Shown here piece after piece: positions 11,517 to 34,303 of a stretch of DNA of 38,310 bases (positions within the stretch are counted from its first letter, which is position 1; each line of letters opens with the position of its first letter). The translations under genes and the position numbers were made by a program. A model generated the notes under the pieces. It was not told the origin of the DNA and made no database searches. It saw nothing but the letters and a program-made list of their open reading frames with translations. The stretch comes from an uncultured Flavonifractor sp. (GTDB lineage: Bacteria; Bacillota; Clostridia; Oscillospirales; Oscillospiraceae), in NCBI RefSeq assembly GCF_944385615.1, contig NZ_CALWXV010000024.1, positions 1-38,310 of the forward strand, in the 5' to 3' direction.

Positions 11517-11602
11517 TATGCGCTTACCCCTGTTGTCTGGCATCCTTTGCCGGTTTGTGGTATGCTAAAGCAAACAGAGACAAAAATAGGAGGTTATCCG
11601 CC

Positions 11603-14383
11603 ATGACAGAAGCCCAACGCCGCGCCGCTGCCAAACAGTTTTCCGCCGACTGGGCGGGGAAAGGTTATGAAAAGGGACACAGCCAGCCCTTCTGGCTTTC
11701 TCTGCTTCGGGATGTGTACGGTGTGGAGCACCCCGAACAGTTCATCACTTTTGAAGATCAGGTCATTCTGGACCACACCAGCTTTATTGACGGTCTGATT
11801 CCGTCCACCCACGTTCTCATCGAGCAGAAAAGCCTGGGAAAAGAGCTGAACAAGCCTATCAGGCAGTCGGACGGTACCCTGCTCTCCCCCTTCCAGCAGG
11901 CCAAGCGGTACGCCGCCGAGCTGCCCTACTCCCAGCGCCCCCGGTGGATCGTCACCTGCAACTTTGCCGAGTTCTATGTCTACGATATGGAGCGCCCCAC
12001 CGGCGACCCGGAGATCATCCAGCTCAAAGACCTGGAAAAGGAGTATTACCGGCTCCAATTCCTGGTGGACACCGGGGACACCAACATCAAAAAGGAGATG
12101 GAAGTCTCCCTGCAAGCAGGCGAGATCGTGGGCGTGCTGTACGACGCGCTGCTCAAGCAGTACAAGGACCCGGAGGCCGAGGAGACGCTGAAAAGCCTGA
12201 ACGCCCTGTGCGTGCGCCTGGTCTTCTGCCTGTATGCCGAGGACGCCGGGATCTTTGGCGGGCGCAATATGTTCCACAACTATTTGCAGCGCCATATTTC
12301 CGATGCCCGCCGGGCGCTGATCGACCTGTTCCAGGTGCTGGACACCAAACCGGAGGACCGGGACCCCTATATGGACGACGATCTGGCGGCCTTCCCCTAT
12401 GTCAACGGTGGTCTGTTTGCCCAGGAGGACCTTGTGATCCCCCGGCTGGATCAGGCCATTGTGGATTTGATCCTCCACAAGGCCAGCGAGGAGTTTGACT
12501 GGTCGGTCATCAGTCCCACCATTTTCGGCGCTGTATTTGAAAGCACCCTCAACCAGGAGACCCGCCGCAGGAACGGAATGCACTATACCAGCATTGAGAA
12601 CATCCACAAGGTGATCGACCCGCTGTTTTTGGACGATTTGCGGAGCGAGTGGGAGGAAATCAAGGAGATCCCGGTGGACAAGACCCGCACAGCCCGGTTA
12701 AACGCCTTTCAGGCCAAGCTGGCGGGGCTGACCTTCTTAGACCCGGCCTGCGGTTCGGGCAACTTTTTGACGGAGACCTATCTGTCCCTGCGGCGGCTGG
12801 AAAACCAGGTCATTGCCCTGCTGCAACATAACCAGGTCTCTCTGGGCCATGTCACCAATCCCATTCAAGTCTCCATCGGTCAGTTCTACGGGATCGAGCT
12901 CAACGACTTTGCCGTGTCGGTGGCGAAAACCGCCCTTTGGATCGCGGAAAGCCAGATGATGAAGGAGACGGAGGATATCGTCCGTCTGTCGCTGGATTTT
13001 CTGCCCCTGAAATCCTACGCCAATATCATCGAGGGCAACGCCCTGCGGATGGACTGGGAGAGCGTGGTGCCCAAGGGAAAGCTAAATTATATTATGGGCA
13101 ACCCGCCGTTTGTCGGCGCAAGACTAATGAAGAACCCTCAAAAGGAAGACTTAGCCGAAGTATTTTTAGGGCATAAAAAAGCAGGAAATTTAGATTATGT
13201 TGCTGGATGGTATATAAAAGCATCTATTTTAATGCAAAATAGTCAAATTCATGCCGCCCTAGTGTCAACAAATTCAATTACACAAGGCGAACAAGTTCCG
13301 ATTTTATGGAAAGATTTATTTGATAAAGGTATTCATATTGATTTTGCACATCGTACATTTCAGTGGGATAGCGAGGCTAAGATCAAAGCTCATGTGCATT
13401 GTGTAATCATAGGTTTTAGCACTTGCTCTAATAGCAAAAGAAAATTTATTTTTTCGTCAGACAGACCACAAATAGCAAAAAACATTAATCCATACCTGAT
13501 AGACGGCCCAAATGTTTTAATTGACAGCCGTAATCGCCCTATATACAACGTACCAGCAGTTGTATTTGGAAATATGCCTAATGACGGCGGATATCTTTGT
13601 GATTACTCTACAGAGCAAAAAAATGCAATTATTAATACCTATCCTGATGCAGCAGATATGTTCAAACTTTTCTTAGGTGCATCAGAATTTTTACACAATA
13701 AAGAACGATGGTGCTTGTGGCTCAAAGGTATTTCTCCTGTGATGCTGAAAAAAGTACCGCCGGTACTAGATGCAGTTAGAGCAGTACAGCAAATGCGAGA
13801 AGATAGCAAGCGCCAAGCAACAAAAAAGCTTGCTCAAACACCAACATTGTTTGGAGAAATTAGGCAACCTGATACTCAGTATATTATTATTCCAAGACAT
13901 TCCTCTCAAAATAGGCGATATATTCCTATTGGATTTGTAAGTCCTGAAATTATTTGTGGTGATGCTAACTTATTAATGTCTCATGCTACCTTATTTCATT
14001 TCGGTATATTGATGTCAAATGTACATAACGCATGGATCCGTATAGTTTGTGGAAGAATTAAGAGCGACTACCGTTATTCAGTTAATATTGTCTACAACAA
14101 TTTCCCCTGGCCCAACCCCACCGAACAGCAGAAAGCCAAAATCGAGCAGACCGCCCAGGCCATCCTGGACGCCCGGGCGCTGTACCCGGACTGCTCCCTG
14201 GCCGACCTCTACGACGAAGTAGCCATGCCCCCGGAGCTGCGGAAAGCCCACCAGCAAAATGACCGGGCCGTCATGCAGGCTTACGGCTTTGACATCAAAA
14301 CCACCACCGAGACCTCTTGTGTGGCGGAACTGATGAGAATGTATCAGAAACTAGTAGAAGGAGAAAGAAGCAAAAAAATATAA
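11603..14383 (+). CDS. MmeI-like single-chain restriction-modification enzyme (Type IIG/IIL)
   Basis: This 926-residue protein combines DNA cutting, adenine methylation and target recognition. The N-terminal nuclease motif is Asp63 in SFIDGL followed by Glu74-Gln-Lys76 (D-x10-ExK). A helical spacer follows. The N6-adenine methyltransferase has motif I DPACGSGNF near residue 385 and motif IV MGNPPFVG near residue 500. The target-recognition domain then precedes a conserved C-terminal helical tail (NNFPWPNPTEQQKAKIE onward). AGGAGG precedes the ATG at 11603. Bases of about 13,080-14,100 (the end of the methylase and the recognition domain) are markedly AT-rich, whereas both flanks are GC-rich, consistent with exchange of the specificity module. 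The small membrane gene downstream overlaps the stop codon. No separate S or R subunit gene is present. Confidence 0.9.
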   Translation: MTEAQRRAAAKQFSADWAGKGYEKGHSQPFWLSLLRDVYGVEHPEQFITFEDQVILDHTSFIDGLIPSTHVLIEQKSLGKELNKPIRQSDGTLLSPFQQAKRYAAELPYSQRPRWIVTCNFAEFYVYDMERPTGDPEIIQLKDLEKEYYRLQFLVDTGDTNIKKEMEVSLQAGEIVGVLYDALLKQYKDPEAEETLKSLNALCVRLVFCLYAEDAGIFGGRNMFHNYLQRHISDARRALIDLFQVLDTKPEDRDPYMDDDLAAFPYVNGGLFAQEDLVIPRLDQAIVDLILHKASEEFDWSVISPTIFGAVFESTLNQETRRRNGMHYTSIENIHKVIDPLFLDDLRSEWEEIKEIPVDKTRTARLNAFQAKLAGLTFLDPACGSGNFLTETYLSLRRLENQVIALLQHNQVSLGHVTNPIQVSIGQFYGIELNDFAVSVAKTALWIAESQMMKETEDIVRLSLDFLPLKSYANIIEGNALRMDWESVVPKGKLNYIMGNPPFVGARLMKNPQKEDLAEVFLGHKKAGNLDYVAGWYIKASILMQNSQIHAALVSTNSITQGEQVPILWKDLFDKGIHIDFAHRTFQWDSEAKIKAHVHCVIIGFSTCSNSKRKFIFSSDRPQIAKNINPYLIDGPNVLIDSRNRPIYNVPAVVFGNMPNDGGYLCDYSTEQKNAIINTYPDAADMFKLFLGASEFLHNKERWCLWLKGISPVMLKKVPPVLDAVRAVQQMREDSKRQATKKLAQTPTLFGEIRQPDTQYIIIPRHSSQNRRYIPIGFVSPEIICGDANLLMSHATLFHFGILMSNVHNAWIRIVCGRIKSDYRYSVNIVYNNFPWPNPTEQQKAKIEQTAQAILDARALYPDCSLADLYDEVAMPPELRKAHQQNDRAVMQAYGFDIKTTTETSCVAELMRMYQKLVEGERSKKI

Positions 14384-21459: not shown

Positions 21460-22067
21460 GTCATCTCCTCTATGAGATGGCGGACGATGCGGCCCGTGAG
21501 GCCCCAGATGGTCCCCTCCGGCCACGGGTAGACCGGCACTGACACCTCCCCGCTCCGCCAGCGGTAGCCCTGGGGAAAACCGATGCGGTCATAGGGGAAA
21601 TCCTCCCCCACCTGGGGCTTGAGCTCATAGGAGTAGACCTGGGGCGGGTTGTCCCTCAGCCAGTCCAGCGGCACCAGAAAGGTGCGTTTGACCTCGGCGG
21701 GGCTGGGGCGCATGGCGGCCATTCCCCCTTGGCTCACCACCCCCAGGAAGGGATGCATGACAAATTTGCCCTGCTGTACCACCAGGTCCAGGGGGGCGAT
21801 GATCTCCACCTCCGCCGGTGGGATGGCCAGCTCCTCCCAAGTCTCCCGCAGGGCGCAGTCCTGGGGGGTCTCCCCCGCCTCTACCCGGCCGCCGGGAAAA
21901 CACACCTCCCCCGGCTGGTGGGACAGAGTATCCGCCCGCACTTCAAAGAGCAGGCTTAACCCTTCCGGTCCCTCCACCAACGGCGCCAATACCGCGTATG
22001 CCCGCTTCACGTCCTGGACCTGGGGGCTGTGGCCCGCCCAGCGGGCCTGAAAATCGGCCAGAGTCAT
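21456..22067 (-). CDS. NUDIX hydrolase, CoA pyrophosphatase type
   Basis: This 203-residue hydrolase probably cleaves CoA or acyl-CoA to 4'-phosphopantetheine and 3',5'-ADP. It has the UPF0035 signature LLFEVRADTLSHQPGEVCFP followed by the NUDIX box GGRVEAGE...RETWEEL. The box ends in Ala where Gly is usual. The start at 22067 overlaps the stop of the upstream acetyltransferase gene (ATGA), with GGAGAAAGG before it. An ATG five codons earlier also exists. Confidence 0.88.
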   Translation of the reverse strand: MTLADFQARWAGHSPQVQDVKRAYAVLAPLVEGPEGLSLLFEVRADTLSHQPGEVCFPGGRVEAGETPQDCALRETWEELAIPPAEVEIIAPLDLVVQQGKFVMHPFLGVVSQGGMAAMRPSPAEVKRTFLVPLDWLRDNPPQVYSYELKPQVGEDFPYDRIGFPQGYRWRSGEVSVPVYPWPEGTIWGLTGRIVRHLIEEMT

Positions 22068-22690
22068 CCTTTCTCCATCCAATCACAAAGAGTCTGATAA
22101 AATTTTCCTACGTGTACCCCATCCAATAGGCGGTGATTTAACTCCAGACTCAGGCTGAGCATGGTCCTGTCCCCCTGCTCCTCCCAACGGCCCCAACTGA
22201 CCCGCGGCACAGAGTCCCAGGGCACCATATCCCGCTCGTTGGTCAGTGACGTGATGGGAAACCAAGGTAAGCAGATAAAGTAGATCAGCTCATCCTCTGC
22301 CCAGGGTCCGGTGGGAAGAAATTCCGTCTGAGCCGCCGAGGCTGCCTTGGCGCGGCGGCAAAAATCGGACAAGTCCTCTCCCGCCTCCAGGGTAACAATA
22401 TGGAAAAGCTCGCTCCCCTGTTTCAGATCGGTAAAACTGGGCACCAGCCGGTCATGGCGGACAATGGTGCCGTTCCGATCCTTGTAAAGAAACGCCTCCA
22501 CCTGTTCCATGGCTTTTGTTACAGCAAAAACCATAGCGGGATAGAAGGGCAGACCCTCCCGCCTGCACCGCTGCCGCAGCGGGGTCACATCCACCGGAAA
22601 GGTCAGGCTGTAAAAGGGGTGAGACATGGGCGCAAAAAAAGCGTAATGCTCTTTTCGCTCCCAATGCTCCCTGTCAATTTCTCTGGTCAT
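22064..22690 (-). CDS. Chloramphenicol acetyltransferase-like O-acyltransferase
   Basis: This 208-residue protein of the trimeric CatA family has conserved segments FPVDVTPLRQR, FYPAMVFAVTKAM, FITSLTN-like PWFPITSLTN, and LELNHRLLDGVHVGKF at the C-terminus. His186 and Asp190 of the HxxxDG catalytic motif are kept, while the preceding His of the usual HH pair is Asn. Many chromosomal clostridial members of this family are not proven resistance genes, so the acceptor is unknown. It overlaps the NUDIX gene by 4 bases and follows the XRE gene by 1 base. Confidence 0.85.
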   Translation of the reverse strand: MTREIDREHWERKEHYAFFAPMSHPFYSLTFPVDVTPLRQRCRREGLPFYPAMVFAVTKAMEQVEAFLYKDRNGTIVRHDRLVPSFTDLKQGSELFHIVTLEAGEDLSDFCRRAKAASAAQTEFLPTGPWAEDELIYFICLPWFPITSLTNERDMVPWDSVPRVSWGRWEEQGDRTMLSLSLELNHRLLDGVHVGKFYQTLCDWMEKG

Positions 22691-24993: not shown

Positions 24994-25059
24994 TCAGCCC
25001 AGTCCCTCCAGCTCTTCCAGCCAAAGAGCAGCCACGGCATCAGAGGGCATCCGCCAGTC
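24994..25059 (-). pseudogene. Relic second copy of the nadE 3' end
   Basis: This stretch encodes 21 codons plus stop that match the last codons of the intact nadE at 25227-25292. Twenty residues are identical and the last is Gly instead of Glu. Nine codons differ only synonymously (for example TCT/TCC, GTG/GTA, CTG/TTG), so the copies diverged under protein selection in two functional genes rather than by recent local duplication. No upstream nadE body is attached; a palindrome-rich segment precedes it. Confidence 0.75.
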
Positions 25060-25226: not shown

Positions 25227-27149
25227 TCATTCCAATCCCTCCAACTCTTCCAGCCACAGGGCCGCTACAGCGTCGGAGGGCATCCGCCAGTCGCCTCTGG
25301 GGGACAGAGCCACCGAGCCCACCTTGGGCCCATCGGGCAGACAGGAGCGCTTGAACTGCTGGGAGAAGAACCGGCGGTAGAAGTTTTTCAGCCACTTGAG
25401 CAGGGTGGCCCGGTCATAGCGGACACCCAGGGCCTGCTCCGCCAGCCGCAGCACCTTCCGGGGCCCAAAGCCCCAGCGAATGGCATAGTAGAGATAAAAG
25501 TCATGGAGCTCGTAGGGCCCCACCAGATCCTCGGTCTTTTGGGTGATCTTCCCCTCGATGGCGGGAAGAAGCTCCGGGGATACGGGGGTATCCAGAATAT
25601 CGGCCAGCACTCCGGACAGCTGGGGGTCCTCCTCCTCCTTGTCATCGGAGATAAAGCTGACCAGATGGCGCACCAGGGTCTTGGGGATACCGGCGTTGAC
25701 GGCATAGTTGCTCATGTGGTCCCCGTTGTAGGTACACCAGCCCAGAGCCAGCTCGGATAGATCGCCAGTACCGATGACCAGGCCGCCGGTCTGATTGGCG
25801 ATATCCATAAGCACCTGGGTCCGCTCCCTGGCCTGTCCGTTTTCAAAGGTCACGTCGTGGTTTTCCATGGACTGGCCGATATCCTTGAAGTGGCGGCGTA
25901 CCGCCTCCCCAATGTCGATGGTTTTGAGGGTACACCCCAGCCGCTCGGCCAGCAGCACGGCGTTGGATTTGGTTCGGTCCGTGGTGCCGAAACAGGGCAT
26001 GGTGACGGCGATAATATCGGTGGCGGGGCGGTCCAGCATCTGCATGGACACCGCCGTAATGAGCACCGCCAGGGTGGAGTCCAGTCCGCCGGACAGGCCC
26101 ACCACCGCCGTCTTGGCGTTGGTGTGCTCCAACCGCTTTTTGAGCCCCATGGCGGCGATATACAGGATCTCATTACACCGCTCCGCCCGGTCATTCTGGT
26201 CCTGGGGGACAAAGGGGGTCGGAGAGATGGGCCGGGTGAGCCGGGTGTCGGTTACCGGCAGATGGAAGCTGGCTCGCCAGCACTCCCGACTGGGGTCGGC
26301 CTGATAGGTATTCATCCGCTGCCGTTCATAGACCAGCCGATCCACATCGATCTCGCTGATGGTCAGACCGGAGGCAAAGCGCCGCTCAGCCAGAATGGAG
26401 CCATTTTCCGCCACAATATTGTGCCCGGCAAAGACCAGGTCGGTGGTGGACTCCCCCTCGCCAGCGTCGGCGTACACATAGCCGCACACCAGCCGCCCGC
26501 TCTGACCGGACACCAGACCCCGGCGGTAAGCGGCCTTGCCCGCCAGCTCATTGGAGGCCGACAGGTTCAAAATCAGGGTGGCGCCCGCCCGGGCCGCCCG
26601 GATGGAAGGGGGCTCCGGGGCCCACAGGTCCTCGCAGATCTCCACGCCGATCACCAGATTGGGCAGGTCCTTACAGGCAAACAGGTCGCCGTCCGACAGG
26701 CCCACCTCCTGCCCGCACAGGATCAAACTTGCCTGCACGCCCGCACCGGAGGCAAACCACCGCCCCTCGTAGAACTCCCCGTAGTTGGGCAGATAGGTCT
26801 TGGGCACCAGGCCCAGAATCTCCCCGCTCTGGATAACCGCCGCACAATTATACAGCTTGTTGTCCCATTTGTTCCACACAGGCAGGCCTACGGCGGTCAC
26901 CATATCCAGATTCTTGGTGGCCTCCAGGATGGTGCGGAGTCCCTCCTCCGCCCCCTTCAGCAGGGTGGACTGGAGGAACAGGTCCCCGCAGGTATAGCCG
27001 GTGAGGCACAGCTCGGGCAGCGCCAGTACCTTCACCCCCTGCTTGTCCGCCTCCCGCATGAGGGTAAAAATCTGCTCGGCATTATAACGGCAGTCCGCCA
27101 CCCGGATCTTGGGGGTCCCGGCGGCCACTTTTACAAATCCATCGCGCAT
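25227..27149 (-). CDS. nadE: Glutamine-dependent NAD+ synthetase
   Basis: This 640-residue two-domain enzyme carries out the last step of NAD synthesis: deamido-NAD plus ATP plus glutamine-derived ammonia gives NAD. The N-terminal nitrilase-fold glutaminase has the catalytic triad Glu46 (LPELCLTG), Lys117 (LVPKTYLPNYGEF) and Cys172 (GVEICEDLW). The C-terminal synthetase has the PP-loop LSGGLDSTLAVL near residue 350 and GTGDLSELALGWCTYNGDHM. AAGGAGGCG precedes the ATG at 27149. The 3' end is duplicated downstream (see the relic). Confidence 0.96.
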   Translation of the reverse strand: MRDGFVKVAAGTPKIRVADCRYNAEQIFTLMREADKQGVKVLALPELCLTGYTCGDLFLQSTLLKGAEEGLRTILEATKNLDMVTAVGLPVWNKWDNKLYNCAAVIQSGEILGLVPKTYLPNYGEFYEGRWFASGAGVQASLILCGQEVGLSDGDLFACKDLPNLVIGVEICEDLWAPEPPSIRAARAGATLILNLSASNELAGKAAYRRGLVSGQSGRLVCGYVYADAGEGESTTDLVFAGHNIVAENGSILAERRFASGLTISEIDVDRLVYERQRMNTYQADPSRECWRASFHLPVTDTRLTRPISPTPFVPQDQNDRAERCNEILYIAAMGLKKRLEHTNAKTAVVGLSGGLDSTLAVLITAVSMQMLDRPATDIIAVTMPCFGTTDRTKSNAVLLAERLGCTLKTIDIGEAVRRHFKDIGQSMENHDVTFENGQARERTQVLMDIANQTGGLVIGTGDLSELALGWCTYNGDHMSNYAVNAGIPKTLVRHLVSFISDDKEEEDPQLSGVLADILDTPVSPELLPAIEGKITQKTEDLVGPYELHDFYLYYAIRWGFGPRKVLRLAEQALGVRYDRATLLKWLKNFYRRFFSQQFKRSCLPDGPKVGSVALSPRGDWRMPSDAVAALWLEELEGLE

Positions 27150-27302: not shown

Positions 27303-27767
27303 TCAGTCCCGGTTTTCGTTCCGGTCCCGCCGCTGGCGGGTCCGTCCGGGCTCAAAGTCGTTGGCCTTCATGATATCCTGCAGCTCTTCGGTGTACTTGC
27401 TGGAGGTATGCACCACAAAGGCGTCGGAGTCGATGGGGATGCCCCGCTCGTCCATCTGCCGGATGCTCCAGATATACAGAGCGTCCAGCGCCGGAATGAG
27501 CTGTTCCCCACTGGGGGTGAGCACATACTCCACCTTGGGCGGAATGGTGTCGTAGGAAATGCGGCGGATCAGCCCCGCCTCCACCAGCTCCCGCAGCTGC
27601 TGGCTGAACACCTTCTCTGAAATGGGCAGAGCCTTCAACGTCTGGTTGAAGCGAATGCTCCCGTAGGTGTGGATCTCATGGAGGATGGTCATCTTCCACT
27701 TCCCGCCAATGCAGTGCAGCACATAGTGGTAGGGATTTGTCGGTGTGTCAAAATGATCGTTCCACAC
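27303..27767 (-). CDS. HxlR-family winged-helix regulator, likely regulator of the phloroglucinol cluster
   Basis: This is a 154-residue regulator. The HxlR domain is clear: HYVLHCIGGKWKMTILHEI, then RFNQTLKALPISEKVFSQQL (recognition helix) and the wing VEYVLTPSGEQLIPAL. A C-terminal extension of about 45 residues ends in a very basic, disordered tail. The start is a GTG at 27767, with AGAGGT 8 bases upstream. It is divergent from the catabolic cluster, with about 420 bp between them. HxlR proteins often sense aldehydes, quinones or aromatic compounds; response to phloroglucinol or an intermediate is inferred. Confidence 0.88.
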   Translation of the reverse strand: MWNDHFDTPTNPYHYVLHCIGGKWKMTILHEIHTYGSIRFNQTLKALPISEKVFSQQLRELVEAGLIRRISYDTIPPKVEYVLTPSGEQLIPALDALYIWSIRQMDERGIPIDSDAFVVHTSSKYTEELQDIMKANDFEPGRTRQRRDRNENRD

Positions 27768-27824
27768 AAGCAGTTACCTCTTTCTCTCCCGGATTTACGC
27801 GCAGGGACCGACCGTTGTCCCCGC

Positions 27825-27838
27825 GTTATCATGATAAC
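27825..27838. promoter_or_regulatory. Perfect palindrome GTTATCATGATAAC, candidate HxlR operator
   Basis: A 14-bp perfect dyad lies 58 bp upstream of the HxlR gene start, in the shared divergent region (27768-28188). The rest of this region is AT-rich, with the cluster promoter at its far end. I see no gene in it. Confidence 0.45.
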
Positions 27839-28038
27839 ACAGCATCCCGCTCCCCACAAGGCGGCGTTGGAACCTTCCGGGGTGGTTATGCCAAAATTTT
27901 AACAAAGAATTTGTGTACTTTCAACAACAATTCTCATTCACGCCCGGTATTTCAGCCGTTTTGCATATTTTTATCCTTGCTGTTTGGGCGATTTTCACAA
28001 TTTTCCGCCACTTACCATTTGGTGGGTGCAAACCAGCA

Positions 28039-28094
28039 AGTTACCTACTTACATAATTGTGTGTATTGCACAAAAGCCGCCCCACGACTACACT
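28039..28094 (+). promoter_or_regulatory. Promoter of the phloroglucinol cluster with upstream AGTTAC half-sites
   Basis: TTGCAC (28066-28071), 17 bp, then TACACT (28089-28094). The 15-mer TGTATTGCACAAAAG is identical at the MFS promoter (32842-32856). Upstream, AGTTAC and ACTTAC half-sites (from 28039) match AGTAAC/ACTTAC in the MFS promoter region. A leader of about 90 bp separates the -10 from the cupin start. Confidence 0.7.
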
Positions 28095-28188
28095 ATAACC
28101 AGACAAAGTGCTGAGGCCCATGGAGGCCCGGCAAAGCGTATTTCCCCAATGAAATTCATAAATGATAGGTTAAAGGAGCGGATTTCAA

Positions 28189-28539
28189 ATGGTTAAGCGC
28201 ACTGTTGAGGAACTGAAGACTTATGAGGCCGCCGGCCACTTTGGCTGTGTCGCCATGCGCATCCACGGCAAGGAGGAGACCGGCGCTGAGAAGTTCTGGG
28301 TTGGCGTTTCCACCTTCCTGCCCGGCGGCGGCGCTGAGTGGGCTTACGAGGACAACCCGCTGGAGAAGGTCTACTACGTGCTGGAGGGCGAGATGACCGT
28401 CACCGATAAGGACGGCAAGAAGTACGTCATCCACGCCAACGAGTCCATCTCCTTCCCCCCCAATGAGGGCCGCGGCCTGAAGAACGAGAGCAACCTGCCC
28501 GCCCGTATGCTGGTCATCATCAACTATCCCAACGCCTGA
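28189..28539 (+). CDS. Cupin-domain protein, first gene of the phloroglucinol cluster
   Basis: This is a 116-residue single-cupin protein. The beta-barrel motif region 1 reads EWAYEDNPLEKVYYVLEGEM and motif 2 reads ANESISFPPNEGRGLKNES. The histidines of the standard HxH...E...H metal site are replaced (Trp/Tyr region in motif 1, Arg or Gly in motif 2), so either no metal or an unusual site is expected. AAAGGAG precedes the ATG. It is the promoter-proximal gene and lies 42 bp before the SDR gene. Its function is unknown; a binding, tautomerising or regulatory role toward an enol/keto aromatic is possible. Confidence 0.85.
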   Translation: MVKRTVEELKTYEAAGHFGCVAMRIHGKEETGAEKFWVGVSTFLPGGGAEWAYEDNPLEKVYYVLEGEMTVTDKDGKKYVIHANESISFPPNEGRGLKNESNLPARMLVIINYPNA

Positions 28540-28581
28540 TTCAACGGGCGCTTCTGAACGATATCAAGGAGGAAAATCATC

Positions 28582-29391
28582 ATGGTTCCTGTTAAGAAGG
28601 ATTTTGTTGAGAATATGTTCTCCGTCAAGGATAAGGTCGCTCTGGTCACCGGCGCCACCGGCGCTCTGGGCTGCGTGCTGGCCAAGGCTTACGGCTACGC
28701 CGGCGCCAAGGTCTTCATGACCGGCCGCAACGACGCCAAGCTGAAGGCCCTGGAGGACGAGTTCAAGGCCGAGGGCATCGACTGCGCCTACTTTGTGGCC
28801 GACCCCGCCAAGGAAGAGGATGTGGACGCTCTGGTAAAGGCCTGCGTGGCCAAGTACGGCTGCATCGACATTCTGGCTGTCTCTCACGGCTACAACAAGC
28901 CCCAGAACGTGCTGGAGCAGTCCGTTGCCGACTGGCAGTACATCATGGACGCCGACTGTAAGAGCGTGTACATCGTCACCAAGTATGTGGCCCATCAGAT
29001 GGTGGCCCAGTACGAGGCCGACAACACCAAGCGGGGTAAGATGGTCATCGTGACCTCTCAGCGCTCCAAGCGCGGCATGGCCGGCTACACCGGTTACTGC
29101 ACCTCCAAGGGCGGCGCGGACCTGATGGTCTCCTGCCTGGCCTGCGACCTATCCGCCAAGTATCACATCAACGTCAACTCCATCTGCCCCACCGTGTTCC
29201 GCAGCGATCTGACCGAGTGGATGTTCGACCCCGAGTCCGCCGTGTACAAGAACTTCCTCAACCGCGAGCCCATCGGCCGCCTGGGCGAGCCCGACGACTT
29301 CGTTGGCTACGCGCTGTTCCTGTCCTCCGACGCCTCCAACTTCATCACCGGCAGCAACTGCGACTGCTCCGGCGGTTACCTGGTGGTGTAA
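28582..29391 (+). CDS. Short-chain dehydrogenase, candidate phloroglucinol reductase
   Basis: This is a 269-residue SDR. The dinucleotide motif is VTGATGALG (residues 22-30), the catalytic Ser159 lies in VTSQRSKRG and Tyr172/Lys176 in YCTSKGG. C-terminal [13 protein letters not shown] is the usual dimer segment. In the known clostridial pathway an NADPH-dependent SDR reduces phloroglucinol to dihydrophloroglucinol. The assignment rests on the match of all four neighbouring families to that pathway, not on a residue unique to this enzyme. SDR alternatives such as a general hydroxy-acid reductase remain possible. AAGGAGG precedes the start. Confidence 0.8.
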
Positions 29392-29423
29392 TGTCCGGCT
29401 GACGGGAAGGACGGCATAACGCA

Positions 29424-30353
29424 ATGAAACAGATTAAAAATATCCTGATCTGCGGCGCGGGCATGATGGGCAAAAACATCGGCTTCGTGTTCGCTTCCAA
29501 CCCCGACTTCCAGGTGGGTATGTACGATCTGTACCCCACCGATGTGGAGGCCGGCATCCGCACCAACTCCAAGCAGCTGGTGGACAAGGGCGTCATCACT
29601 GAGGAAGAGCTCAGCGACCGGCTCTCCCGCATCTCCTTTACCACCGACATGGACAGCGATATCGTCAAGAACGCCGACTTCGTTATTGAGGCCGTGTTCG
29701 AGGACATGAAGATCAAGCGCGAGACCTTCGCCAAGCTGGAGGAGCGCTGTGCCGAGGATACCATCTTCTGCACCAACTCTTCCGTCATGAGCCCCAGCGA
29801 GATCTCCGCCGAGCTCAAGCACCGGGAGCGCTTCGTGGGCACCCACTTCTGGAACCCCGGCCACCTGATCCCCCTGGTGGAGGTGGTCAAGTCCGACGCC
29901 TCCTCCGATGAGACGGCCCAGACCGTCATGGAGGTGCTGCGCTCCGTGGGCAAGAAGCCCGTGCTGTGCAAAAAGGACGTGCCCGGCTTCATCGCCAACC
30001 GGATGCAGCACGCCCTGTGGCGTGAGGCTATCTCCATTGTGGAGAACGGCATTGCTGACGCTGCTACCGTGGACGAGGCGGTGCGCTACTCCTTCGGCCT
30101 GCGGCTGCCCCAGCTGGGCCCCATGGAGAACGCCGACATGGTGGGCACCGACCTGACCTACAACATTCACGACTACATCCTCCAGGACCTGGAGGATTCC
30201 CACAAGCCCTCCCCCCTGCTTAAGCAGCTGCGGGACGAAGGCAAGATCGGCTTCAAGACCGGCGAGGGCTTCCAGAAGTGGACCCCTGAGCAGGTTGCCA
30301 AGTCCAACGCCGACCTGAACGAGTACCTGATCCGGATGCTGTACGGCAAGTAA
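29424..30353 (+). CDS. 3-hydroxyacyl-CoA dehydrogenase-like enzyme, candidate 3-hydroxy-5-oxohexanoate dehydrogenase
   Basis: This is a 309-residue NAD-dependent enzyme. The Rossmann motif is CGAGMMG (residues 10-16). The catalytic His lies in THFWNPGHLIPLVEVV, with TNSSVMSPSEI and DVPGFIANRMQ as family marks. The C-terminal domain contains LGPMENADMVGTDLT and GKIGFKTGEGF. It resembles free-acid members (lambda-crystallin-like) rather than the fused FadB type. In the phloroglucinol pathway this step oxidises 3-hydroxy-5-oxohexanoate to triacetate (3,5-dioxohexanoate). It is third in the cluster, 32 bp after the SDR gene. Confidence 0.8.
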   Translation: MKQIKNILICGAGMMGKNIGFVFASNPDFQVGMYDLYPTDVEAGIRTNSKQLVDKGVITEEELSDRLSRISFTTDMDSDIVKNADFVIEAVFEDMKIKRETFAKLEERCAEDTIFCTNSSVMSPSEISAELKHRERFVGTHFWNPGHLIPLVEVVKSDASSDETAQTVMEVLRSVGKKPVLCKKDVPGFIANRMQHALWREAISIVENGIADAATVDEAVRYSFGLRLPQLGPMENADMVGTDLTYNIHDYILQDLEDSHKPSPLLKQLRDEGKIGFKTGEGFQKWTPEQVAKSNADLNEYLIRMLYGK

Positions 30354-30407
30354 GCCATCCGGTCATTCCCCCAAACATTTTGACCATTATTTAAGGAGGC
30401 ACCTGTT

Positions 30408-31418
30408 ATGGGTAAAGTATATGTTGATCTGACCCACCCCTTCAGCGCGGAGATTCCCCGCTGGCCCTATTTTGATAAGCCCGAGATCACCAACGCCCAC
30501 ACCATGGCCAAGGGCGGCGTGCTGACCTCCAAGATCACCTGCACCATGCACACCGGCACCCACTGCGACGCCCCCCGCCACGTCATGGAGTACGAATTCG
30601 ACGGCCGTCGGGCCCGCTACACCCACGAGATGCCCATCGACGCCTACACCGGCGAGGCTGTGGTGCTCAAGCTGGACGTGGAACCCTGGACCCTCATCAC
30701 CGACAAGCACCTGGACGAGGCTTGCCAGAAGTGCGGCGTGAATCCCGACGATCTGAAGGGCAAGGTCCTGTGCCTGAACACTGGTATGCACCGCCTGTTT
30801 GACGACTCCAAGGCCTACTATCACTACTCCATCGGCACCGGCATCGACGCCGGCAAGTGGTTTGTGAAGCACGGCGTGAAGTGCGTGGCCATGGACAGCC
30901 AGGCTCTGGATCACCCCCTGCACACCGCCATGGGCAACAACGGCATGACCCGTATGAACCTGCTGGGCGCCACCGGCAAGCCCATCACCGAGGAGTACAA
31001 GGAGCTCTTCGGCGAGGAGGCTTACGCTGAGTTCGACAAGTTCGAGTATATCCGCATCCACGGCCAGGCCGCCTATGACGAGAAGTTCGGCGAGCTGGAG
31101 AACCTGGGCGTGTGGGGCACCTGGGAGCCCTGCCACAAGGAGATGCTGGGCCACGGCATCGTGGGCGTTGAGAACCTGGGCGGCGATCTGGACAAGATCA
31201 AGCCCGGCACTGTGTTCCAGTTCTTCTGCTTCCCCCTGCGTTGGTACATGGGCGACGGCGCCATGTCCCGCTGCGTGGCTTACATCGACGAGGAGAACAT
31301 TGATCCCTCCGTGTCCGACCGCACCTACAAGTACGGCGGCACCGGCTACGCCGACGAGTCCGGCCACGGCGGCAGCGGCCTGGAGTACATGCAGAAGCTC
31401 TTCAACCGCAACAAGTAA
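30408..31418 (+). CDS. Cyclase-family metal hydrolase, candidate dihydrophloroglucinol cyclohydrolase
   Basis: This 336-residue protein of the cyclase (kynurenine formamidase-like) superfamily has the metal-binding motif HTGTHCDAPRH (His48, His52, Asp54, His58). A long insertion (about residues 185-260) and the C-terminal GGSGLEYMQKLFNRNK exceed the usual length of about 210-220 residues for the family. In the clostridial pathway a cyclohydrolase opens the dihydrophloroglucinol ring by water addition, giving 3-hydroxy-5-oxohexanoate. AAGGAGG precedes the ATG. A hairpin separates it from the lyase gene. Confidence 0.8.
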   Translation: MGKVYVDLTHPFSAEIPRWPYFDKPEITNAHTMAKGGVLTSKITCTMHTGTHCDAPRHVMEYEFDGRRARYTHEMPIDAYTGEAVVLKLDVEPWTLITDKHLDEACQKCGVNPDDLKGKVLCLNTGMHRLFDDSKAYYHYSIGTGIDAGKWFVKHGVKCVAMDSQALDHPLHTAMGNNGMTRMNLLGATGKPITEEYKELFGEEAYAEFDKFEYIRIHGQAAYDEKFGELENLGVWGTWEPCHKEMLGHGIVGVENLGGDLDKIKPGTVFQFFCFPLRWYMGDGAMSRCVAYIDEENIDPSVSDRTYKYGGTGYADESGHGGSGLEYMQKLFNRNK

Positions 31419-31468
31419 GCATCCGTTCCTATACTTTCCTAATTCCCTTCCCATTCCATGCCAAGCGT

Positions 31469-31496
31469 AAAGCGGCGGGCGGTCGCCCGCCGCTTT
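31469..31496 (+). terminator. Intra-cluster hairpin between cyclohydrolase and lyase genes
   Basis: The perfect 12-bp stem AAAGCGGCGGGC / GCCCGCCGCTTT has a 4-nt loop, but only TTTA follows. It may attenuate or stabilise the 3' end, lowering lyase expression relative to upstream genes. Confidence 0.55.
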
Positions 31497-31530
31497 ATGC
31501 GGTATCCTGATTTGATTAGAAAGGACTTGA

Positions 31531-32385
31531 ATGACCGTGGCTGATCTGAAGAATAAGACTATTATCACCGTGGCCACCACCGGCGCCTGGCCCACCAAGG
31601 AGAACAACCCCAACGTCCCCATGACCCCCGCTGAGATCGCCGAGGATGTGTACGCCTGCTGGAAGGCCGGCGCTGCTGTCGCCCATCTGCACATGCGCGA
31701 CGACGAGGGCCACGGCACCATGGACAAGGAAAAGTTCCGTCAGACCGTGGAGCTGCTGCGGAGCAACCACCCCGACTGCGACATCATCCTGAACATGACC
31801 ACCTCCGGCGACCTGAACGCCACCGACGAGACCCGCCAGATCCACCTGAAGGAGCTGCGCCCCGAGATGGGCTCCTATGACTGCGGCTCCATGAACTGGC
31901 TGCACACCTCCCTGTTCCTCAATCCCCCCGCCTTCCTGGAGCAGCTGGGCAAGAATATGCAGGAGTGGGGCGTCAAGCCCGAGATCGAGGCCTTTGACCC
32001 CGGCATGATCGCCAACGCTCAGTACTACCTGAAGAAGGGCGTGCTGAAGGGGCCCCTGCACTTCCAGTTCTGCATGGGCTGCGCCAACGGCATCCCCGGC
32101 ACCATGAAGAACCTGATCTTCATGAAGGAGACCATGGAGTCCCTGTGCCCCGGCTCCACCTGGAGCTGCTTCGGCGTGGGTCACTCCGCCATGACCATGC
32201 TGTACGGCGCTGTGGCTCTGGGCGGCCACATCCGTGTTGGCATGGAGGATAACGTCATGTACGCCAAGGGTCAGCTGGCTGAGAGCAACGTCCAGTTCGT
32301 GGACCGCGCCCGCCGCGTCATTGAGGAGTTCGGCAAGCAGGTGGCCACTCCCGACGAGGCCCGCGAGATCCTCAGCCTGAAGTAA
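31531..32385 (+). CDS. BKACE (DUF849) beta-keto acid cleavage enzyme, candidate triacetate acetoacetate-lyase
   Basis: This is a 284-residue TIM-barrel zinc enzyme. The metal site HLHMRD (His52, His54) is present, with a later conserved Glu in GGHIRVGMED. ILNMTTSGD and AFDPGMIANAQ are also BKACE-like. BKACEs condense a beta-keto acid with acetyl-CoA, releasing acetoacetate or acetoacetyl-CoA. In this pathway triacetate plus acetyl-CoA gives acetoacetate plus acetoacetyl-CoA, feeding butyrate and acetate formation. AAAGGAC precedes the start. Another beta-keto acid substrate cannot be excluded. Confidence 0.85.
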   Translation: MTVADLKNKTIITVATTGAWPTKENNPNVPMTPAEIAEDVYACWKAGAAVAHLHMRDDEGHGTMDKEKFRQTVELLRSNHPDCDIILNMTTSGDLNATDETRQIHLKELRPEMGSYDCGSMNWLHTSLFLNPPAFLEQLGKNMQEWGVKPEIEAFDPGMIANAQYYLKKGVLKGPLHFQFCMGCANGIPGTMKNLIFMKETMESLCPGSTWSCFGVGHSAMTMLYGAVALGGHIRVGMEDNVMYAKGQLAESNVQFVDRARRVIEEFGKQVATPDEAREILSLK

Positions 32386-32404
32386 GCCTTTTCCCGTTTT
32401 CTGT

Positions 32405-32456
32405 CCCCCGTGGGAGCATTACGGTCATTTTGCCGGTGCTCCCACGGGGGTTTTCT
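32405..32456 (+). terminator. Terminator after the BKACE gene
   Basis: The stem CCCCCGTGGGAGCA / TGCTCCCACGGGGG (14 bp) has an 18-nt loop, followed by TTTT. The stretch 32457-32790 shows no gene; it is T/C-rich, then AT-rich. Confidence 0.8.
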
Positions 32457-32798
32457 GTTGATTCGGCAGATATGCCTGCAAGCCCGCCAGCGCCCCTATA
32501 CGCCGTTTTCTCTCTCAGCCGTCTCCTATACTGCTAAACCCCATTTTCCCTCTCACACGCCGCCAGAAAGCCGTCAGAAGCATCTGTCTGATTTTCACCT
32601 TCTCCCTCCCGGCTTTGTGCGCTTTTTCAGGTATCCTGGACGGGATGCCGCCCCCTGACCATCTCCCCACAAAATTTTGGCTTTAAAATTATACATACTG
32701 TACATTACAGATTTTATACTGTAATTTACCCGCAGCAGTTTGTCAATTTTTTAACTATTATTTTGGGCAGATTATATAAAACAAGACGCTTACTTCTT

Positions 32799-32872
32799 AG
32801 TTACTATGCACTTTTTGGTTAGTAACTCACTTACTTGTATGTATTGCACAAAAGGCCGCAAATCGCTAAAGT
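32799..32872 (+). promoter_or_regulatory. Promoter of the MFS gene with inverted AGTTACTA/TAGTAACT repeat
   Basis: TTGCAC (32844-32849), 17 bp, then TAAAGT (32867-32872). Upstream, AGTTACTA (32799-32806) and TAGTAACT (32820-32827) are perfect inverted 8-mers 21 bp apart. TGTATTGCACAAAAG is shared with the cluster promoter at 28064-28078. The half-sites are plausible HxlR binding sites. Confidence 0.7.
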
Positions 32873-32944
32873 ATACCTGCAACAAGGAATGGACTTGCCG
32901 GCACATGTCCTGATCCAAACCATTTTAGAGATGAGGGAAGATCA

Positions 32945-34303
32945 ATGGCGAAACAAAACCTTCGCGACGGGAACAAAAACTCCGTCGTTAATTTCGGCGC
33001 AGGCTGGCTCGTGATCCTCTACTGTCTGCTCATGTTTTTCCTGTACGTCGGTATGTGCAACGACGGCGCCAACATCACCGCCCCCAACGTGGCCTTCCGT
33101 CTGGGCCTGGAGCAGGGCGACATCATGAACATGAACTCCCTGGCCGGCATCGTCGGCGTGGCGTTCTTCATCATTGTAGGCCAGATCAACCGTAAGGTGG
33201 GTGCCCGCATCACCTCCGGCGTGTGCTGCATTATCTCCGGTATCGCTTACATCCTGGCCTGCAACGCCCCCAGCATTGTTATCTACACCATCGCCATGTG
33301 CTTTGTGTACGGCAGCATCATGTCCGCCGGCTATGTGGCGGGCGGCACTCTGGTAGCCACCTGGTTCCCCAAGAAGAAGGGTGTGGTCATGGGCTACACC
33401 ACCATGGGCCACAACTTCGCTTCCGCCTTTTATGTGCAGTTGGTAGCCATCCTGATCGCGCCCACCGCGGTGGTCGTGAGTAAGGGCGGCGCGGAGCTGG
33501 CCAATGTGGGCGAAAACTTCTCCGCTGGTATCGTTCCCATCGGCATCGCCGCCATCGTTCTCGGTATCCTGGGTATGATCTTCATCCGCAATACCCCCCA
33601 GGAGCGCGGCATCAACCCCGACAACGTCTCTGATGAGGTCTATAAGAACGAGTACGACACCACGGACGCGGTCGAGGGCGACGGCGGCTGGACCACCGGC
33701 AGTTTGCTCAAGACCAAGGAGCTGTGGCTGGCCGCCATCACCACCGCCTTCTTCCAGATCTGCTCCGTGGGCGTCATGAGCCAGCTGGTGACCCGCAACA
33801 TTCAGCTGGGCTTCACACCCCAAGCTGCTATGAACGTTATGACCATCCTGGCCCTGGGCGGCGTGGTCGGCTCCTGGCTCATCGGTATCATCGATGACAA
33901 GATCGGCACCAAGAAAACCATGGTGGGCTTCGGCGTATGGTATGCCATCGCCCTGCTGTGCAACTTCGGCGCCACCGACAGCTCTTCCCCTCTGGTGTAT
34001 GTCTCCCTGTTCATGATCGCCATGGGCATCGGCGGCTCCGCCAACTTCACCACCTCTCTGCCCACCTCCATCTTCGGCCGTCAGGGCTTTGACAAGGTGA
34101 ACAGTGTCATCTTCCCCATCCAGGGTGCCATCACCGCCTTGTGCTTCCTGGTCAACGGCGTGGTACAGAAGATGACCGGCGGCGAGATCAAGATGGCCTA
34201 CCTGGTGTTTGCCGCTGTGGCCCTGGTCAACGTGGTGCTGGTGCTCATCGTAAACGAGCACCGCTTCAACCGGGACTGGAAGGCCGCTCACGCCGGCAAG
34301 TAA
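32945..34303 (+). CDS. OxlT-like MFS transporter, candidate phloroglucinol-cluster transporter
   Basis: This 452-residue protein has twelve predicted membrane segments, the MFS motif-A-like NRKVGARITSG and IGIIDDKIGTKKTM, and the central loop WTTGSLLKTKELWLA typical of oxalate/formate-antiporter-like carriers. GAGGGA precedes the ATG. It has its own promoter that matches the catabolic cluster promoter, so it probably imports the aromatic substrate or exchanges it for a product acid. The direction and substrate are inferred. Confidence 0.88.
   Translation: MAKQNLRDGNKNSVVNFGAGWLVILYCLLMFFLYVGMCNDGANITAPNVAFRLGLEQGDIMNMNSLAGIVGVAFFIIVGQINRKVGARITSGVCCIISGIAYILACNAPSIVIYTIAMCFVYGSIMSAGYVAGGTLVATWFPKKKGVVMGYTTMGHNFASAFYVQLVAILIAPTAVVVSKGGAELANVGENFSAGIVPIGIAAIVLGILGMIFIRNTPQERGINPDNVSDEVYKNEYDTTDAVEGDGGWTTGSLLKTKELWLAAITTAFFQICSVGVMSQLVTRNIQLGFTPQAAMNVMTILALGGVVGSWLIGIIDDKIGTKKTMVGFGVWYAIALLCNFGATDSSSPLVYVSLFMIAMGIGGSANFTTSLPTSIFGRQGFDKVNSVIFPIQGAITALCFLVNGVVQKMTGGEIKMAYLVFAAVALVNVVLVLIVNEHRFNRDWKAAHAGK

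Follow-up and report, generated by a model that had tools for sequence, protein, structure and literature searches.

A predicted phloroglucinol degradation operon in a Flavonifractor-like gut bacterium, with a conserved cupin gene and an operator-like promoter signature

Phloroglucinol is an aromatic ring set free from plant polyphenols. Its degradation pathway in Clostridium scatologenes has been reconstituted in vitro with four enzymes, PGR, DPGC, TfD and TAL (Zhou et al. 2023, mBio, PMC10470551). The text of that paper cites a solved phloroglucinol reductase structure, describes a hunt for further clusters that used the four enzymes, and names Eubacterium ramulus, Eubacterium oxidoreducens and Flavonifractor plautii as further carriers. 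Here we describe a gene set of this type at 27303-34303 of a contig (NZ_CALWXV010000024.1) from an uncultured Flavonifractor sp.; "the window" below is the whole stretch analysed, 38,310 nucleotides (nt) in length. On sequence evidence, we predict, with a probability of roughly 0.93, that the gene set is an operon by which a Flavonifractor-like gut bacterium degrades phloroglucinol anaerobically. The pathway is not new, as it was published in 2023 and close relatives are already listed as carriers in the text of Zhou et al.; the additions to it are a conserved cupin and an operator and promoter signature.

The four predicted enzymes and their conservation

The first-pass annotation had placed an HxlR regulator, an SDR, a 3HCDH-family enzyme, a cyclase, a BKACE and an MFS carrier in this interval. 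All six are intact open reading frames (ORFs), and every Pfam score exceeds its gathering score. Families and coordinates were thus correct, but a cupin gene of the same operon had been overlooked. The genes, together with a hairpin that separates two of them, are as follows.

27303-27767, minus strand: HxlR-family regulator (PF01638, 84.0 bits), divergent from the enzyme operon
28189-28539, plus strand: cupin of 116 amino acids (aa), first gene of the operon (Cupin_2, PF07883, 55 bits)
28582-29391, plus strand: SDR, predicted phloroglucinol reductase (PGR; adh_short_C2, 142.9 bits; PDB 5g4k match)
29424-30353, plus strand: 3HCDH-family protein, predicted (S)-3-hydroxy-5-oxohexanoate dehydrogenase (TfD, or HOHDH; 3HCDH_N, 185.4 bits; diagnostic residues)
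30408-31418, plus strand: predicted dihydrophloroglucinol cyclohydrolase (DPGC; Cyclase, PF04199, 103.9 bits; diagnostic residues)
31531-32385, plus strand: BKACE-family protein, predicted triacetate acetoacetate-lyase (TAL; PF05853, 359 bits; W20)
32405-32450, plus strand: terminator-like hairpin 3' of TAL (perfect 14-bp inverted repeat, then a T-rich stretch)
32945-34303, plus strand: MFS-family protein, candidate carrier of phloroglucinol or an organic acid (MFS_1, PF07690, 82.3 bits)

The SDR is identical to PDB 5g4k at 222 of 263 aligned residues (84%), and a PDB search matched 5g4k/5g4l at E = 1.8e-148, with the next protein at 1.9e-34. We take these two entries to be the phloroglucinol reductase of Clostridium sp. 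ATCC BAA-442, the PDB listing itself saying only SDR-family oxidoreductase. The window protein has in common with them the catalytic Tyr/Lys pair (Y172/K176) and a TR(S/N)-type NADPH motif, here T47-G48-R49-N50 and T-G-R-N also in 5g4k; R49 is present in 70/70 aligned sequences. It differs from both by five inserted residues around positions 142-146.

In the other three enzymes we find the residues by which the text of Zhou et al. sets the pathway proteins apart from their relatives. TfD is described there as lacking two residues of the CoA enzyme, Lys56 and Asn221, while retaining the catalytic ones. In the window protein, V57 and R227 replace these CoA-binding residues of 3-hydroxybutyryl-CoA dehydrogenase, and the catalytic S120, H141 and N192 are kept. 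Across 61 sequences, the Lys is gone in 59, the Asn is replaced by Arg in all, and the catalytic Ser/His/Asn are present in all. With both CoA-binding residues gone, an ordinary 3-hydroxybutyryl-CoA dehydrogenase is ruled out for this gene. For DPGC, Zhou et al. report Trp20/Tyr22 in place of the Ile/Leu of isatin hydrolase; the window cyclase has W19/Y21 at equal spacing, a pair found in 80 of 81 aligned sequences (the remaining one has a gap), and its His/Asp metal motif (H48, H52, D54, H58) is found in all 81. All 16 Foldseek matches to the DPGC model at E<=0.001 are of the cyclase, kynurenine formamidase or isatin hydrolase type. For TAL, a Trp is reported where KCE needs Glu14, and W20 occupies this site in the window protein and in 60/60 aligned sequences. 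The earlier match of the four genes to the phloroglucinol pathway is therefore upheld, by 84% identity to 5g4k for the SDR and by the published diagnostic residues for the other three.

The same gene row recurs in other genomes. A genome scan with the cyclase gave 152 confirmed relatives, and 80 named loci were kept. Contig ends cut many of these loci, making all presence counts lower bounds: at >=50% identity, at least 72 of the 80 hold PGR, 64 TAL, 62 TfD, 45 HxlR, 44 the cupin and 17 the MFS carrier. All four enzymes occur together at this identity in 54/80 loci, including both from E. ramulus, and in 25/36 when the count is limited to loci of >=18 kb; the recurrence of the set argues that the row is not due to chance. 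The closest named relatives are Flavonifractor species (cyclase 97% identical). In two same-genus genomes, G018 and G017, the cyclase occupies contig positions identical to those in the named Flavonifractor loci L032 and L037, respectively, and the host is therefore most probably a Flavonifractor as GTDB defines the genus. In the two E. ramulus loci (L062, L077), the enzymes stand in the same order as in the window and are 82-83% (PGR), 62-63% (TfD), 80-82% (DPGC) and 75-76% (TAL) identical to it. These loci differ from the window in the position of HxlR, which lies about 6 kb beyond TAL rather than divergent next to the operon, and in the cupin, which is 36-38% identical and on the opposite strand.

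Clusters without TAL in the stretch fetched do not represent a different pathway. Ten genomes with such clusters were searched (L038, L039, L042, L052, L055, L056, L057, L084, L108 and L111), and each proved to have a TAL (72-94% identical), either at another place or at a greater distance along a contig. In six TAL regions fetched from five of these genomes (G119, G120, G122, G124, G125), TfD adjoins TAL in five, a second TAL of G125 standing without TfD, which indicates that the pathway can split into a cupin-PGR-DPGC block and a TAL-TfD block. At L049 and L110, only a close TfD is lacking at the locus.

Substrate supply and completion of the route

In the proposed route, PGR would reduce phloroglucinol to dihydrophloroglucinol with NADPH, and DPGC would open the ring hydrolytically to give 3-hydroxy-5-oxohexanoate. 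TfD would oxidise this product to triacetate (3,5-dioxohexanoate), from which TAL, with acetyl-CoA, would form acetoacetyl-CoA and acetoacetate. A thiolase and a CoA-transferase encoded elsewhere would complete the route to acetyl-CoA. Outside the cluster, contig C23 of the same assembly carries the thiolase gene and the genes for the two CoA-transferase subunits side by side. This arrangement differs from that of C. scatologenes, where the text of Zhou et al. places thiolase and CoA-transferase inside the cluster; the four enzyme families with their diagnostic residues, the MFS carrier and a regulator are common to both. We do not regard the in-cluster position as defining, because it is described for C. 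scatologenes and the published cluster search used the four enzymes.

A DAPG/phloretin-hydrolase-family gene (267 bits; best PDB match just 117.5 bits) is found at the end of contig C21, beside genes for a 704-aa OYE-type reductase and an FMN-reductase-family protein. Its product could supply phloroglucinol from phloretin-like compounds (the text of PMC7862272 is the reference for the flavone pathway). The earlier description of the locus as a self-contained module does not hold, given the thiolase and CoA-transferase on C23 and the phloretin-hydrolase-family gene on C21.

Phloroglucinol is the presumed substrate in the host organism, and its origin bears on the most durable alternative to our reading: the chemistry would be the same, with a main input that is not flavonoid-derived. 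The input would instead derive from tannin, gallate or pyrogallol, be supplied free by other bacteria, or be a substituted phloroglucinol. Tannins are listed as a second phloroglucinol source in the text of Zhou et al., the MFS carrier suggests uptake from outside, and an inspection of the window ORFs by eye, made without a whole-window family search, recognised no phloretin hydrolase, chalcone isomerase or transhydroxylase. Against this stands the C21 gene in its company of reductase-type genes, and the two kinds of input are not mutually exclusive. We regard a mainly non-flavonoid input as a serious possibility, though not the favoured one. The carrier itself offers little guidance to its cargo: its best NCBIfam match is an L-lactate MFS transporter model, below the cut-off (77.8 of 320 bits), and phloroglucinol or an organic acid would be the candidate substrate.

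Promoter regions of the enzyme operon and the MFS gene

Six sites upstream of the cupin gene and of the MFS gene form the predicted control regions.

28010-28027, plus strand: O1, operator-like inverted repeat ACTTACC-N4-GGTGGGT, aligned in the window and eight relatives
28047-28064, plus strand: O2, second operator-like site, ACTTACATAATTGTGTGT, abutting the -35 box (>3 mismatches to the O1 form)
28058-28076, plus strand: 19-bp element TGTGTGTATTGCACAAAAG, common to the MFS promoter and overlapped by O2
28066-28094, plus strand: enzyme-operon promoter-like site TTGCAC-N17-TACACT, a consensus-type match with hexamers invariant in the window and eight relatives
32788-32805, plus strand: O1-like site 5' of the MFS gene (5 mismatches by eye), 52 nt before the element core
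32836-32854, plus strand: 19-bp element TGTATGTATTGCACAAAAG, with TTGCAC-N17-TAAAGT, common to the enzyme promoter

The 19-bp element (TGTRTGTATTGCACAAAAG) contains the -35 hexamer of both the enzyme and the MFS promoter. At <=3 mismatches it occurs only at these two places in the window and the 2.69 Mb assembly (89.6% complete), and in none of 100 window shuffles. O1 stands 52 nt from the element core in the enzyme promoter, and the O1-like site upstream of the MFS gene keeps this distance. An O2-like site (4 mismatches in the window) stands 15 nt from the element core upstream of the MFS gene, as in the enzyme promoter, and the O1-like site 5' of the MFS gene is found at the same distance with 2-3 mismatches in five relatives (L032, L033, L034, L035 and L068). 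These features support the earlier claim that the carrier is co-regulated with the enzymes, combining a promoter element that has no further match in the assembly with operator-like sites at matching distances.

The O1 form recurs beside the regulator in other genomes: of 41 intergenic regions that lie between HxlR and a divergent gene, 29 contain a site with <=3 mismatches, compared with 0.9% of dinucleotide-shuffled sequences. Paired sites in relatives are spaced 37 nt apart in six cases, 18 nt in four and 33 nt in one. Where the MFS gene has been relocated (L132 and L133, which cover 600 bp upstream of the MFS genes belonging to L038 and L039), two sites with 3-4 mismatches remain 37 nt apart, and the 15-nt shared core of the element is lost. 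A loose form of the O1 pattern, allowed one mismatch, matched at three places in the genome, one of them being the window site (0 mismatches); it defines no further regulon members, because a control matched six times.

In an alignment of 46 HxlR sequences (the window and 45 loci), the stretch N11-P12-Y13-H14-Y15 is conserved at >=90% and C19 in 45/46. The redox-sensing Cys of DUF24-type regulators usually stands before the GGKW motif. In this protein the residue at that place is Asn, and C19 is conserved instead. Since O2 abuts the -35 box, we infer repression rather than activation. The hairpin 3' of TAL and the separate MFS promoter fit two transcripts under one regulator; parts of the hairpin were picked up by a terminator scan whose total, 7, compares with 6.1 (sd 2.3) in shuffles. 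Most likely, HxlR would act through 18-bp inverted repeats at or upstream of the -35 box to repress two transcription units, the enzyme operon and the MFS gene with its own promoter, and would release DNA when phloroglucinol or an early product, the putative inducers, is present.

One set of results speaks against control of the whole pathway by this regulator: in six TAL regions from five split-cluster genomes, the 450 bp upstream of TAL, TfD and MFS contained no O1-type site, a result that disfavours one HxlR regulon spanning all pathway genes in those organisms. Nor was an operator with <=4 mismatches found upstream of the phloretin-hydrolase, C80 BKACE (see below) or thiolase genes. It might be asked whether HxlR controls the carrier at all, or whether the common element arose by promoter duplication with no regulator shared between the two, or by chance. 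The split-genome TAL regions without operator-like sites, the weakness of the window sites before the MFS gene (4 and 5 mismatches), and the loss of the shared element at the relocated MFS genes, whose operator-like sites have 3-4 mismatches, would all fit such an explanation. On the other side are the rarity of the element in the assembly and its absence from the shuffles, the 52-nt spacing that holds before the enzymes, the MFS gene and the MFS promoters of five relatives, and the pair of sites 37 nt apart that relocated MFS genes still keep. On this balance we consider an HxlR without control over the carrier unlikely, and prefer joint repression of enzymes and carrier. The main text of Zhou et al., taken apart from its figures and supplements, does not mention HxlR, and no papers linking phloroglucinol with HxlR were found in the open PMC library.

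The cupin, the BKACE paralogues and implications

The operon's first gene has a close association with PGR. In a survey of 119 genomes including that of the window, a close cupin orthologue (>=59% identity) was found in 19 of the 23 genomes with PGR (match at E<=1e-90) and in 0 of the 96 without, some of the latter being incomplete. In 18 of these 19 genomes the cupin gene and PGR share a contig, with 14-75 bp between the end of the cupin gene and PGR; in the remaining genome (G006) the two genes are on separate contigs. Weaker cupins (34-43%) are the sole form in 12 more genomes, four with PGR and eight without, so that the link with PGR is confined to the close form. Among the named loci, a cupin stands directly upstream of PGR in 45 of the 65 that could be assessed for its position (15 could not), two of these 45 being diverged (36%; L056 and L084). 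The other 20 have none there: in the two E. ramulus loci the diverged cupin adjoins PGR on the opposite strand, and in the other 18 a profile search of the locus found no cupin.

The AlphaFold model of the cupin is confident (pLDDT 94.4). In fold it comes closest to the Mn cupin TM1459, followed by the polyketide cyclase RemF and, lower in the list, the DMSP lyase DddK; as 629 chains match at E<=0.001, the fold alone names no function. Metal cupins canonically carry a first motif of the form G-X5-HXH-X3,4-E-X6-G. No HXH is found anywhere in the 36 aligned cupins, and a His occurs within residues 46-66 in only one of them and within residues 84-99 in four, the window protein having neither. The invariant residues are Y12, H17, R24, E59 and Y62.

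Because the published in vitro pathway ran with four enzymes, we consider the cupin an accessory part. The main text of Zhou et al., again apart from figures and supplements, contains no mention of a cupin, and a search of the open PMC library for phloroglucinol together with a cupin gene cluster returned nothing on the pathway by title. A bolder proposal, which we put forward tentatively and which may well prove wrong, is that the cupin is a dedicated fifth pathway protein outside the published four-enzyme scheme, accompanied by an HxlR regulon whose 18-bp operator recurs in gut Clostridia. Such a protein might act on unstable keto/enol intermediates, like an aromatic-polyketide accessory protein in reverse; conceivably, it would ketonise phloroglucinol for PGR, steer the ring opening, or clear lactonised triacetate.

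Several observations count against the assignment of the enzymes themselves. Comparison with characterised proteins was direct for PGR, aligned with 5g4k, but DPGC, TfD and TAL were judged by residues given in the text of Zhou et al. and by E. ramulus orthologues. The PDB relatives of DPGC are weak (best E 3.8e-6), and its structure model is mediocre to fair (pLDDT 70). TAL reaches the cut-off of neither of its two nearest NCBIfam models. It obtains 219.7 of 430 bits on NF053538 (3,5-dioxohexanoate:acetyl-CoA acetone transferase) and does better on the lysine KCE model, with 299.7 of 382 bits; its best PDB match, 2y7d, is a KCE. Both proteins belong to the BKACE family and have in common His52 and His54 of the window TAL, which differs from the lysine enzyme in having Trp for the substrate Glu.

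The genome provides its own control for this difference. A third BKACE, on contig C5, stands beside lysine 5,6-aminomutase, has Glu at the site of TAL W20 and exceeds the NCBIfam KCE cut-off (416.7 of 382 bits). That the locus serves lysine fermentation or general beta-keto acid cleavage, with the BKACE acting on 3-keto-5-aminohexanoate and the SDR and dehydrogenase as unrelated neighbours, is hardly credible: the KCE model and 2y7d are indeed the best matches of this BKACE, but it scores below the KCE cut-off, its substrate-binding Glu is replaced by Trp, the genome has a separate KCE, and the SDR is 84% identical to phloroglucinol reductase. The lysine reading of the window BKACE is accordingly ruled out by the Glu-to-Trp change together with that separate KCE, and phloroglucinol degradation is retained.

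Further features were seen around these genes. The C5 region (L123:6803-12656) holds lysine fermentation genes, with KCE followed downstream by D-lysine 5,6-aminomutase-type subunits. On contig C80 (L121:2019-4649), a second TAL-like BKACE, 65% identical and likewise with Trp at the Glu site, adjoins a sigma-54-dependent PAS-type activator and lies near an IS transposase-like gene (by eye); it is perhaps a second route for triacetate or a related beta-keto acid. In the window, the gene set is flanked on its 5' side by NadE and on its 3' side by an XRE-type regulator and ThrS (the latter by eye). The two copies of a 66-nt direct repeat, 83% identical, lie at the 3' end of the NadE ORF (24994-25059) and at the 5' end of an ORF that by eye resembles a chromate transporter (25227-25292). 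Also by eye, 11555-14383 encodes a 942-aa protein resembling the class I DNA methyltransferases found in restriction or defence systems, and 22064-22690 a 208-aa protein resembling the chloramphenicol acetyltransferase family.

With gene identities, diagnostic residues, synteny and the common promoter element all legible in the sequence, this Flavonifractor-like species joins the gut bacteria for which fermentation of phloroglucinol to short-chain fatty acids is predicted. The residue markers tell the triacetate lyase from the lysine enzyme inside one genome, and the operator and promoter signature could help to predict which carriers form part of the regulon. Two directly testable questions follow: whether HxlR senses phloroglucinol, and what part the cupin may play in a pathway that has already been reconstituted without it.

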